Positions 35,456 through 38,455 of a DNA stretch of 64,000 bases are shown here, in pieces. Numbering within the stretch: position 1 is the first letter of the stretch; each line of letters opens with the position of its first letter. The position numbers and the translations under genes are program-made. The DNA is from Phycisphaeraceae bacterium (lineage in GTDB: Bacteria > Planctomycetota > Phycisphaerae > Phycisphaerales > SM1A02), in contig CP054178.1 of NCBI GenBank assembly GCA_015709595.1, positions 2,857,205-2,921,204 of the forward strand. The letters run 5' to 3'. Below the pieces are notes generated by a model. It ran no database searches. It was not told the origin of the DNA and was given only the letters and a program-made list of their open reading frames with translations.

Positions 35456-35466
35456 TTGCAAGATGG

Positions 35467-36262
35467 CGGCCCCCCCACGCCACGGCGCGGCCCCCCCACG
35501 CCACGGCGCGGCCCCCCACCTGGCGGCGCGGGGCCGACCGCTCCCTCACGGTCGCGGCTCGCTCACGGATGGTCGCGGCTCACGCACGGGTGGTCGCGGC
35601 TCGCTCAGGGAGCCGCCCCTCTCACGCCACGGCGCGGGCCGACCGCTCCTCACGGTCGCGGCTCGCCCAGGAGCGCCCCTCTCACGCCACGGCGCGCCGG
35701 GCGACCGCCCCTCACGGTCGCGGCTCGCTCAGGAAGCGCCCCTCTCACGCCACGGCGCGGGCCGACCGCTCCCTCACGGTCGCGGCTCGCTCACGGATGG
35801 TCGCGGCTCGCTCAGGGAGCGCCCCCTCTCACGCCACGGCGCGGGCCGACCGCTCCCTCACGGTCGCGGCTCGCTCAGGGATGGTCGCGGCTCGCTCAGG
35901 GAGCGCCCCCTCTCACGCCACGGCGCGGGCCGACCGCTCCCTCACGGTCGCGGCTCGCTCACGGATGGTCGCGGCTCGCTCACGGATGGTCGCGGCTCAC
36001 GCACGGATAGTCGCGGCTCGCTCAGGGATGGTCGCGGCTCGCTCAGGGAGCGCCCCCTCTCACGCCACGGCGCGGCCCCCCCACCTGGCGGCGCGGGCCG
36101 ACCGCTCCCTCACGGTCGCGGCTCGCTCAGGGAGCGCCCCCTCTCACGCCACGGCGCGGGCCGACCGCTCCCTCACGGTCGCGGCTCGCTCAGGGATGGT
36201 CGCGGCTCACGCACGGATGGTCGCGGCTCGCTCAGGGAGCGACCCCTCCCACGCCACGGCGT
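35467..36262. repeat. Composite tandem array of two interleaved modules
   Basis: About ten copies of CACGCCACGGCG (often followed by CGGGCCGACCGCTCC) alternate with about eighteen copies of GGTCGCGGCTC, which occur singly or as two to five successive units of about 20-22 bases (CTCACGGATGGTCGCGGCTC). Each block tends to be bounded by CGCTCCCT and AGGGAGCG, which are complementary and could close an 8-bp stem around the GGTCGCGGCTC module. Single copies occur at cinA and folK. Confidence 0.88.
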
Positions 36263-36282
36263 GTCCGGAAACCGGGGGGAGT

Positions 36283-36474: not shown

Positions 36475-37794
36475 ATGAACGCCGCGATTCTCTCCATCGG
36501 CGATGAACTGGTCACCGGGCTGACGGTGGACACGAACTCGTCGTGGCTGGCGGGGCGGCTCATCGCCCGCGGGCTGACGGTTGTAGAGACGCGGTCCGTT
36601 CCCGACGATCGAGCCCGCATCGCTCAGGCGATCCGCGAGCTGGGCGTGCGCGTCGGTGCGCTGGTCATCACGGGCGGGCTGGGTCCGACGCCGGATGATC
36701 TGACGCGGGAAGCGCTGGGCGATGTGCTCACCCCCGGCGAGCCGCTGGAGCGGGACGAGGCGGCGGAGCGGCTCATCGAGCGCTGGTTCGCCCGCACGGG
36801 GCGGGCCATGCCGGAGTCGAACCGTCGGCAGGCGCAGCGGCCGCGCGGGGCGGTGATGATTCCCAACGCGCACGGCACCGCCCCCGGCATCGCCGCCGCA
36901 TGGGGCGAGGGGGGCTGCCGCATCCTCGTGATGCCCGGCGTGCCCCGCGAGATGAAGCCGATGTTCGAGGAGAACGCGGATGCCTGTCTGCCACGGGATG
37001 ACCGGCAGGTGACGGTGATCCGCAGCATTCACACCTGCGGCCTCGGCGAGTCCGACCTGGCGCAGCGGCTGGGTTCGATCCTGTCGCGCGACCGGCAGCC
37101 GCAGGTCGGCACCGCGGCGGGGGGGTCGATGGTGAGCGTGCGCATCTACGCCCGCGGCCCGGCGGCGCAGGCGGCAAGGGACGCGGAGCAGACCCGGCGC
37201 GAGGTGGAGCCGATTCTGTCGCCGTACGCGTACGGGTGCGATGGTGAGTCGCTGCCCGCCGCGCTGCTGCGGGAACTGGCGCAGCGGGGGCTGACCATCG
37301 CCACGGCGGAATCCTGCACCGGCGGCCTGGCGGGGCAGCTCATCACGTCGGCGCCCGGCTCCAGCGCGTGGTACCGGGGCGGGTGGGTGACGTACTCCAA
37401 CGACCTGAAGGTCGCGTGCCTGGATGTTCCGATGGCGATGATCCGGGCGCATGGGGCGGTGTCGGAGCCGGTCGCGTGCGCGATGGCCGGGGGCGCGCTG
37501 CGCCGGGCCCAGAGCAACCTGGCGGTGTCCATCACGGGTGTGGCGGGACCGGACGGCGGGACGGAGGCCAAGCCGGTGGGGACGGTGTGGATCGGCTGCG
37601 GGCGGACGTCGGGCGACGCGGTGGAGACATGGGCGCGTCACTTCCGCTTCGGGGGCGACCGCGAGGCCATCCGCGAGCGGGCCGCGCGCACGGCGCTGCA
37701 GATGGCGCGCTGGGCGGCCCTCGGCGTGGACCGGCGCACGCCGCTGCTGGGCGAGGTGGTGAGTACGATGGCGGAAAGCGAGCCGCGACCGTGA
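36475..37794 (+). CDS. cinA: CinA: NMN deamidase / competence-damage protein
   Basis: A two-domain protein of 439 residues. The N-terminal MoCF-like domain (ILSIGDELVTGLTVDTNSSW, ITGGLGPTPDDLTREAL) has ADP-ribose pyrophosphatase activity in characterised members. The C-terminal domain holds TAESCTGGL with Ser280 as the nicotinamide mononucleotide deamidase nucleophile, and SITGVAGPDGGTEAKPVGTV. It would recycle pyridine nucleotides. The final residues and stop codon (ESEPRP-stop) come from an inverted copy of the GGTCGCGGCTC repeat, so the true family C-terminus probably ends just before. Confidence 0.93.
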   Translation: MNAAILSIGDELVTGLTVDTNSSWLAGRLIARGLTVVETRSVPDDRARIAQAIRELGVRVGALVITGGLGPTPDDLTREALGDVLTPGEPLERDEAAERLIERWFARTGRAMPESNRRQAQRPRGAVMIPNAHGTAPGIAAAWGEGGCRILVMPGVPREMKPMFEENADACLPRDDRQVTVIRSIHTCGLGESDLAQRLGSILSRDRQPQVGTAAGGSMVSVRIYARGPAAQAARDAEQTRREVEPILSPYAYGCDGESLPAALLRELAQRGLTIATAESCTGGLAGQLITSAPGSSAWYRGGWVTYSNDLKVACLDVPMAMIRAHGAVSEPVACAMAGGALRRAQSNLAVSITGVAGPDGGTEAKPVGTVWIGCGRTSGDAVETWARHFRFGGDREAIRERAARTALQMARWAALGVDRRTPLLGEVVSTMAESEPRP

Positions 37795-37802
37795 GGGAGC
37801 GG
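37778..37802 (-). repeat. Inverted single copy of the GGTCGCGGCTC repeat over the cinA stop
   Basis: On the minus strand these 25 bases read CCGCTCCCTCACGGTCGCGG then CTCGC, identical to the commonest unit of the 35.5-36.2 kb array. The cinA TGA lies inside it. Confidence 0.88.
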
Positions 37803-37816
37803 TGGGTTTGGTCGGG

Positions 37817-38455
37817 ATGAGAGCGAGCAACCGCCAGGTGAACGTTGAACAATCGAATGAGGGCTCGGAAGAATCGGCGCACCAACCGCTTCCTCACGGT
37901 CGCGGCTCGCTGAAGGCGGCGCCTCACCCGCTCCCTGACGGTCGCGGCTCGCTGAAGGCGGGAGTCGAGCGGAGCGCCTTCATCGCGCTGGGCTCGAACC
38001 TGGGCGATCGCGCCGGGCATCTGCGGCGGGCGCTGGCGCTGCTGGGTGGGACGCCGGGGGTCCGCGTCGTCGCGGTCAGTTCGTTTCACGAGACTGACCC
38101 GGTGGGTGATGCGGATCAGCCGAGGTTTCTCAACGCCGCGGCGCATCTGGCGACGTCGCGTTCGCCGCGCGACCTGCTGGAGGTGCTGCTGGGCGTCGAG
38201 CGTGAACTGGGGCGCGTGCGGCGTCCTGCGGAGCGGTGGGGGCCGCGCACGATCGACCTGGACCTGCTGCTGATGGGCGACCTGGTCGTGGAGGAGCCGG
38301 GTCTGACGCTGCCGCATCCGCGGATGCACGAGCGGGCGTTCGTGCTGGAGCCGCTGGCGGAGATCGCGGCGGGCGTGGTCCACCCGGTGCTGAAGCGGTC
38401 CATCGGCGTTCTGCGGGACGAGGCGCGGCGGCGCGGCTGCTGTTCGCAGCCGTGA
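37817..38455 (+). CDS. folK: 2-amino-4-hydroxy-6-hydroxymethyldihydropteridine pyrophosphokinase
   Basis: HPPK of folate synthesis, transferring pyrophosphate from ATP to the pterin. The catalytic domain begins at AFIALGSNLGDR and includes SSFHETDPVG, NAAAHLAT and RWGPRTIDLDLLLMGD, the ATP- and magnesium-binding end. The preceding 52 residues are not part of the family; they contain two repeat-encoded copies of PLPHGRGSLKA / PLPDGRGSLKA. No ATG, GTG or TTG lies between the repeats and the catalytic domain, so translation must cross them unless CTG is used. ATG 37817 is chosen; GTG 37802 and 37838 are alternatives. Confidence 0.88.
   Translation: MRASNRQVNVEQSNEGSEESAHQPLPHGRGSLKAAPHPLPDGRGSLKAGVERSAFIALGSNLGDRAGHLRRALALLGGTPGVRVVAVSSFHETDPVGDADQPRFLNAAAHLATSRSPRDLLEVLLGVERELGRVRRPAERWGPRTIDLDLLLMGDLVVEEPGLTLPHPRMHERAFVLEPLAEIAAGVVHPVLKRSIGVLRDEARRRGCCSQP
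37886..37961 (+). repeat. Two direct copies of the GGTCGCGGCTC repeat within the folK N-terminus
   Basis: Units at 37886-37919 and 37927-37961 share CACGGTCGCGGCTCGCTGAA-type sequence (second copy GACGG) and continue into GGCGG. Spacing is 41 bases, and each copy is in the frame that avoids a stop (H-G-R-G-S-L). Confidence 0.88.

Follow-up and report, generated by a model that had tools for sequence, protein, structure and literature searches.

REP elements, imperfect palindromes of 20-40 bases in many dispersed copies, are usually viewed as mostly extragenic, and their transposases (RAYTs) as stand-alone genes. A survey of REPs within genes and of Rickettsia palindromic elements (PMC3733652, main text) already describes REPs read in frame, stop codons supplied by REPs, and REPs at N termini whose coding status is doubtful, and in-frame REPs inside subclass 2.4 transposases are described in the accessible sections of PMC6006769. 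In REPtron and REPIN-RAYT systems, as presented in the accessible sections of PMC8049555 and PMC8266576, one transposase gene accompanies many dispersed REPs and is surrounded by inverted REPs; the RAYT is presented there as a single-copy, housekeeping-like and vertically inherited gene with no evidence of mobility, and the REPIN model assumes that a copy landing in a gene destroys that gene. Furthermore, class 3 TnpA-Y1 transposases (Quentin et al. 2018, PMC6006769) are characterised in those sections by NHVH, Y----Q and W-T motifs, occurrence in planctomycetes, flanking hairpins with a CnGA foot and possibly a many-copy state.

The cinA-folK junction described here, from a 64,000-nucleotide window (the whole stretch of DNA analysed) of a Phycisphaeraceae bacterium, belongs to the kind already described, with which it shares in-frame REPs, REP-supplied stops and N-terminal cases. 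The GTAG or CGTC end tags of the REPs in PMC3733652 are not found in this element, whose 5' side is GYGAG, and a RAYT lies within valS, whereas the accessible sections of that survey describe none inside a host gene. With REPtron and REPIN-RAYT systems this genome shares a single transposase gene, a large number of dispersed REPs and inverted REPs around the gene. The motifs, planctomycete occurrence, flanking hairpins and possible multiplicity of class 3 TnpA-Y1 recur as well, while the foot of the flanking hairpins reads GYGA(G) instead of CnGA. What appears new, and is surprising, is the apparent recurrent and alternating in-frame housing of a transposase in loops of ValS and RdgB. A RAYT housed within valS, rdgB or pglX did not appear among the hits listed in the literature searched, mostly freely readable main texts.

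REP copies at the cinA-folK junction

The REP core GAGCCGCGACCGTNAGGGAGC has 14 matches in the window at up to 3 mismatches, against 0.07 expected and with 0 of 100 shuffles reaching 14. Eleven of them fall in a tandem array (35.5-36.2 kb) and the other three at the junction of cinA and folK (21-base cores at 37780-37800, + strand, 0 mismatches; 37888-37908, - strand, 1 mismatch; 37930-37950, - strand, 0 mismatches). The features are collected in Table 1.

Table 1. Features at and near the cinA-folK junction (window positions)
Feature	Position	Strand	Description
Tandem array, 21-base units	35462-36263		includes 11 core matches of the junction REP; non-coding by the coding model
cinA	36475-37794	+	Pfam CinA, MoCF_biosynth, CinA_KH; last codons and TGA lie in REP copy 1
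REP copy 1	37777-37802	+	GYGAG foot and hairpin CCGC-GA-CC-GTGA-GG-GA-GCGG; gives the cinA stop codon
Convergent REP pair	37777-37911		inverted arms; 27-base-pair RNA stem possible, enclosing ATG 37817 and GTG 37838
folK	37802-38455	+	Pfam HPPK, TIGR01498; HPPK domain from about 37979; putative start GTG 37802 or ATG 37817
REP copy 2	37886-37911	-	in the folK frame PLPHGRGSL
REP copy 3	37928-37953	-	GTCA loop variant; in the folK frame PLPDGRGSL

The initial annotation had placed the end and TGA of cinA within a repeat copy, and the first junction core, which matches without mismatch, indeed gives this 3' end as GAG CCG CGA CCG TGA. Its reading of two copies as PLPHGRGSL-type peptide in the folK frame ahead of the FolK domain is borne out by both translations. 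Likewise, no ATG, GTG or TTG follows between the repeats and the domain, the last in-frame start (GTG 37838) preceding them. The orientation of the copies needs rewording, however: the cinA copy points one way and both folK copies the other, giving a convergent pair plus one. The broader claim that the repeat shapes both gene ends stands for the CinA end and for the in-frame stretch ahead of FolK, but this is not special to the junction, as the repeat is a REP family of 146 copies. The same genome-wide spread rules out spill-over from the nearby array as the source of the junction copies. Clusters of REP copies similar to the array occur at three other loci of this genome (L143, L145, L155).

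Comparison with the junctions of relatives had been proposed as a check. Of 61 genomes, 60 (this one included) gave a FolK match, and 30 loci were read, in 16 of which, again including this one, cinA lies upstream of folK. The distance from the cinA stop to the FolK domain is 170 nt here versus 9-69 nt in 13 relatives, with an overlap or fusion in the remaining 2 (n=15). The REP core was absent at up to 3 mismatches from all 29 folK loci of relatives, one of which held a single match with 4 mismatches. The absence of such copies from the 15 relatives in which cinA adjoins folK shows the junction REPs to be insertions, and the shorter spacing in the relatives agrees with this. In one relative (G022, locus L043) cinA and folK share one 640-aa open frame, a possible fusion.

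Probable translation of the stretch ahead of FolK

In-frame starts of folK are GTG 37802, TTG 37808, ATG 37817 and GTG 37838, the nearest being 46 codons ahead of the AFIALGSN motif. Rarer initiation codons (CTG, ATT, ATC, ATA) are represented in the 25 codons preceding this motif by just two CTG, at 22 and 8 codons. Translation of the FolK N-terminal stretch is likely, judging from the open frame and the positions of these starts. As an alternative for folK only, the REPs could be extragenic and translation could begin at one of the two CTG codons. Several observations are in keeping with such a rare start: the main text of the 2013 survey (PMC3733652) cautions that N-terminal REPs may in many cases lie outside the gene, all 29 relatives have a start codon within 22 codons of the FolK domain (42 codons here), and the codon use of the stretch is neutral, with a log-odds of 1.6 for the 49 codons that run from ATG 37817 across the REPs versus 43.8 for the 163 domain codons. 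Nevertheless, the frame is open without any ATG, GTG or TTG downstream of the REPs, and a rare start cannot account for the REPs deep within other proteins of this genome, so that this alternative is rated as rather unlikely. Homoserine dehydrogenase (L170) is likewise without a start between its N-terminal REP and its domain. In trpF and pdxA, by contrast, candidate starts lie downstream of the N-terminal REPs.

The predicted RNA fold of 37760-37970 has a free energy of -105.6 kcal/mol (z -3.52), and none of 200 shuffles was equally stable. An mRNA stem formed by the convergent pair would take in the folK ATG together with its second GTG and may thereby affect folK expression.

The REP family across the genome

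Element bounds were taken from an alignment of 76 genome copies (up to 1 mismatch; three array-like stretches set aside), in which conservation runs from about AGY ahead of the core to GG beyond it and little further, giving about 26 bases. The element comprises a 5' GYGAG foot and an imperfect hairpin (CCGC-GA-CC-GTNA-GG-GA-GCGG) whose stem has two tandem G-A mismatches and whose loop is GTNA. Across the genome, 146 copies of the core match with 3 mismatches or fewer (52 on the + and 94 on the - strand), while a reversed-pattern control gave 0. With a 26-base block, a hairpin and these dispersed copies, the element has the form expected of a REP; furthermore, matching repeats flank a RAYT at the valS locus.

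Five of the six frames of the REP are open and the sixth reads EPRP-stop, which is opened when the loop GTCA replaces GTGA; the repeat may consequently enter reading frames without cutting them. In line with this, the intragenic copies lying in the otherwise-stopping frame (EPRP-TGA) read EPRPSG via the GTCA loop (4 copies). The surroundings were surveyed in 58 stretches around the listed copies together with the junction, using a codon model trained on 32 ORFs of the window. Among the copies listed, 21 of the 70 clusters examined fall within predicted genes, with one open frame continuing across the cluster; another 28, including the cinA-folK one, lie between coding flanks in different frames, 17 have one coding flank and 4 have none. 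Hosts of in-frame REPs include mnmA and homoserine dehydrogenase (two clusters each), carB, miaB, rimO, a class II ribonucleotide reductase, a Dus enzyme, a PLP-dependent enzyme and a P-type ATPase. Among viral contigs, 67 stretches (L272-L338) carry an exact REP core and represent phages or misbinned host DNA.

A transposase domain within valS

A single Y1 transposase match was found in this genome at E 0.001 (Pfam Y1_Tnp, PF01797), with scores of 28.9 and 24.9 bits that both pass the gathering cut-off of 23. It sits in a 1343-aa open frame (L010:888-4919; G000:C1 3835387-3839418) that also matches valine--tRNA ligase, with a score of 936.5 bits distributed over separate stretches. Relative to Thermus thermophilus ValRS (1GAX), the insert lies between residues 363 and 377, and it is bounded in frame by convergent REPs, + before and - after. 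The gene valS encodes an essential tRNA-charging enzyme; a second, normal valS was looked for and rejected, the other matches in the genome being under the cut-off. By eye, a second and unrelated in-frame repeat insertion (SPAERGPGEG...PHPQGER) is seen further down this ValS.

The domain shows HUH and Y----Q signatures (HVH and YVLHEQ), and its motifs NHVH, WT and YVLHEQ agree with the class 3 table of PMC6006769. It scores 29.6 bits on the NCBIfam RAYT model NF047646, under the cut-off of 80, and the transposase matches of the A2 profile among solved structures are weak (best E 0.019). The ValS-housed transposase probably moves the REP. Carriage of a close RAYT on plasmids was considered and no match was found. 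An assembly chimera or a misread frame is a practically negligible explanation: the genome is one contig, the same arrangement recurs in families f1, f2, f4, f5 and f6, and no support for such an error was found.

Housed RAYTs in related genomes

The order was sampled with 301 genomes, at cuts of E 1e-30 for class-3-like RAYTs (type A) and E 1e-45 for NP-type RAYTs (type B); counts of housed cases are lower bounds set by these cuts and by the loci read. Class-3-like RAYTs gave 80 matches in 56 of the 301 genomes, and at least 16 genomes, accounting for 16 of the 17 best matches, hold one in the same ValS loop. NP-type RAYTs occupy that loop in at least 22 genomes and RdgB in at least 8 (30 genomes with a match), and both types together in ValS were seen in 0 of the genomes counted. 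By Pfam, the five of eight RdgB cases scanned show Ham1 in two stretches with Y1_Tnp in between, and one RdgB-housed NP-type copy (L246) reaches 93.6 bits on NF047646, above the cut-off of 80.

Among the 16 class-3-like ValS cases, both histidines and the tyrosine are present in all and the terminal Q in 15. REP cores (up to 2 mismatches) lie on both sides of the RAYT, + before and - after, in 15 of the 16, and the case in G043 has no such REP at its flanks. NP-type inserts are flanked by peptides of other repeats, for example GTGVSPV and GRDARAT; the REP core was found at none of the 14 of 30 NP-type loci scanned. Two ValS-housed RAYTs (L211 in G115, L215 in G251) hold an in-frame REP (RAATVRERS and RAATVRERT, respectively) between the HUH and tyrosine motifs. 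These class-3-like copies resemble the subclass 2.4 transposases in which PMC6006769 describes an internal in-frame REP.

In occupying the same site of conserved genes again and again, the housed RAYTs resemble another group of passengers. Inteins and homing endonuclease genes repeatedly occupy one site of a conserved gene, with filled and empty alleles, and inteins and introns often lie in conserved essential genes. The position of the insert in a conserved, presumably essential gene could accordingly suggest that it is removed before the enzyme matures, in an intein-like or intron-like manner. This is highly improbable, given that Pfam shows no Hint or splicing domain in this ValS, in two further ones or in five RdgB cases, that no intron family of Rfam (group I or II) matches at E 1 in five loci, and that an open frame runs across the insert in each of the 38 ValS cases, within the limits of the contigs. 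The length of the loop in ValS without a RAYT, which ranges from 57 to 155 aa across 37 genomes, argues in the same direction; in contrast to an intein, the passenger apparently stays in the protein. Two of these RAYT-free loops are long (155 aa at L129 in G031 and 134 aa at L133 in G049) and are possibly remnants or other inserts.

REP-rich genomes, defined by at least 10 copies at up to 1 mismatch, make up 11 of the 16 genomes with a class-3-like RAYT in ValS versus 20 of the 285 others (Fisher p 7e-9, not corrected for relatedness), while NP-type housing shows no clear link with REP richness (5 of 22; p 0.06). No class-3-like RAYT was found at E 1e-30 in 14 of the 31 REP-rich genomes, which makes the link between REP and RAYT an incomplete one.

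Gain, loss and exchange of the housed domain

The ValS tree, obtained by a quick search, has 72 rows; it and the distances leave aside three rows of less than 500 aa (G072, G036, G123), and two further genomes (G019, G054) were not parsed. All 37 insert-free rows come from the set of 61 relatives, so that family f1 is over-represented in the tree. Filled versus empty loops require 11 changes, and on this tree the A label clusters barely beyond chance (45 of 500 shuffles equally low). G251 (A) and G203 (B) are sisters.

One alternative is that the RAYT in ValS and RdgB is no mobile passenger but an old domestic domain, inherited vertically and serving the host. RAYTs are indeed portrayed as domesticated and vertically inherited transposases in the accessible sections of PMC8049555, and the ValS-housed class-3-like copies cluster: on the poorly supported class-3-like RAYT tree (16 housed copies and 13 of the 64 others), housing takes 2 changes against a shuffled mean of 9.7. 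There are also signs of purifying selection. The 46 housed RAYTs (16 A and 22 B in ValS, 8 in RdgB) contain no stops and keep both HUH histidines in 46 and the tyrosine in 45, the copy in G212 having lost it, while stops occur in 12 of the 64 other class-3-like matches. The pN/pS of housed RAYTs is 0.18-0.28 in 5 pairs, with synonymous sites near saturation in three; alternatively, such low values could reflect only the need to leave the folding of ValS or RdgB undisturbed.

Against a domestic domain stand the two RAYT types found at one site and swapping between close relatives: genus g89 has A in two genomes and B in three, and genus g40 has A in two, B in one and none in one (G055). Furthermore, the three states (A, B, none) take 19 changes on the ValS tree, and RAYT distances do not track those of ValS in type A (Mantel 0.12, reached by 475 of 2000 permutations) and track them weakly in type B (Mantel 0.32, reached by 17 of 2000). 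A domestic domain is regarded as unlikely. Since the ValS-housed class-3-like RAYTs cluster while their distances are unlike those of ValS, the pattern would fit either a site-specialised RAYT lineage moving among hosts or the recombination of valS alleles.

Proposed explanation and its implications

The REP family, together with its RAYT housed in frame, quite probably accounts for both the junction and the genome-wide pattern. A convergent REP pair and a third copy entered a short cinA-folK junction, an insertion to which the relatives testify; one REP supplied the CinA stop, and the others lie in the FolK frame, where they would form an N-terminal linker. The RAYT domain occupies a ValS loop of naturally variable length, between convergent REPs. 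As its synthesis would be bound to the valS message and frame, it may be kept for as long as ValS is kept. As their distribution and the trees show, the loops of ValS and RdgB are recurrent RAYT sites, reached by a putative insertion route.

As the best reading of the sequences, REPs would colonise protein loops in frame and a predicted transposase would be translated within housekeeping enzymes; the open frames of the housed RAYTs and their almost fully retained catalytic residues count in favour of this reading. A fuller joint reading stands evenly balanced in our judgement: RAYTs would be in-frame passengers whose lineages enter, and replace each other at, docking loops of ValS and RdgB; the host gene would give promoter, ribosome site and protection from frame loss; the chimeric ValS would still charge tRNA; and the passenger would mobilise REPs into FolK, CarB, MnmA and more. 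With respect to the usual view, the RAYT reads here as part of an enzyme and the repeats as parts of proteins. Such housing would explain the persistence of a single-copy transposase without visible spread, and it makes it possible to test directly whether REP systems persist through benefit to the host or through being locked into an indispensable reading frame.

Housing beyond ValS and RdgB

Among the loci read in a search of the phylum (392 genomes), at least one more host gene came up, a BREX-2 PglX gene (G583) that houses a class-3-like RAYT. Outside the counts are NP-type matches of 443 and 415 aa (G270, G292), long frames of the phylum search (for example, 831 aa in G643) and the majority of the 64 other class-3-like matches, some of which lie within long frames. 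The class 3 survey discarded "a few unexpectedly long proteins" as fusions or annotation errors, as stated in the accessible sections of PMC6006769, whereas the domain lies here within ValS or PglX; a warning for annotation follows for surveys that filter out such proteins. In G259 (L223), a class-3-like RAYT, placed among the 13 other copies in the class-3-like RAYT tree, lies in frame after what appears by eye to be a nucleotidyltransferase, in a 465-aa frame, and may point to a further host gene.
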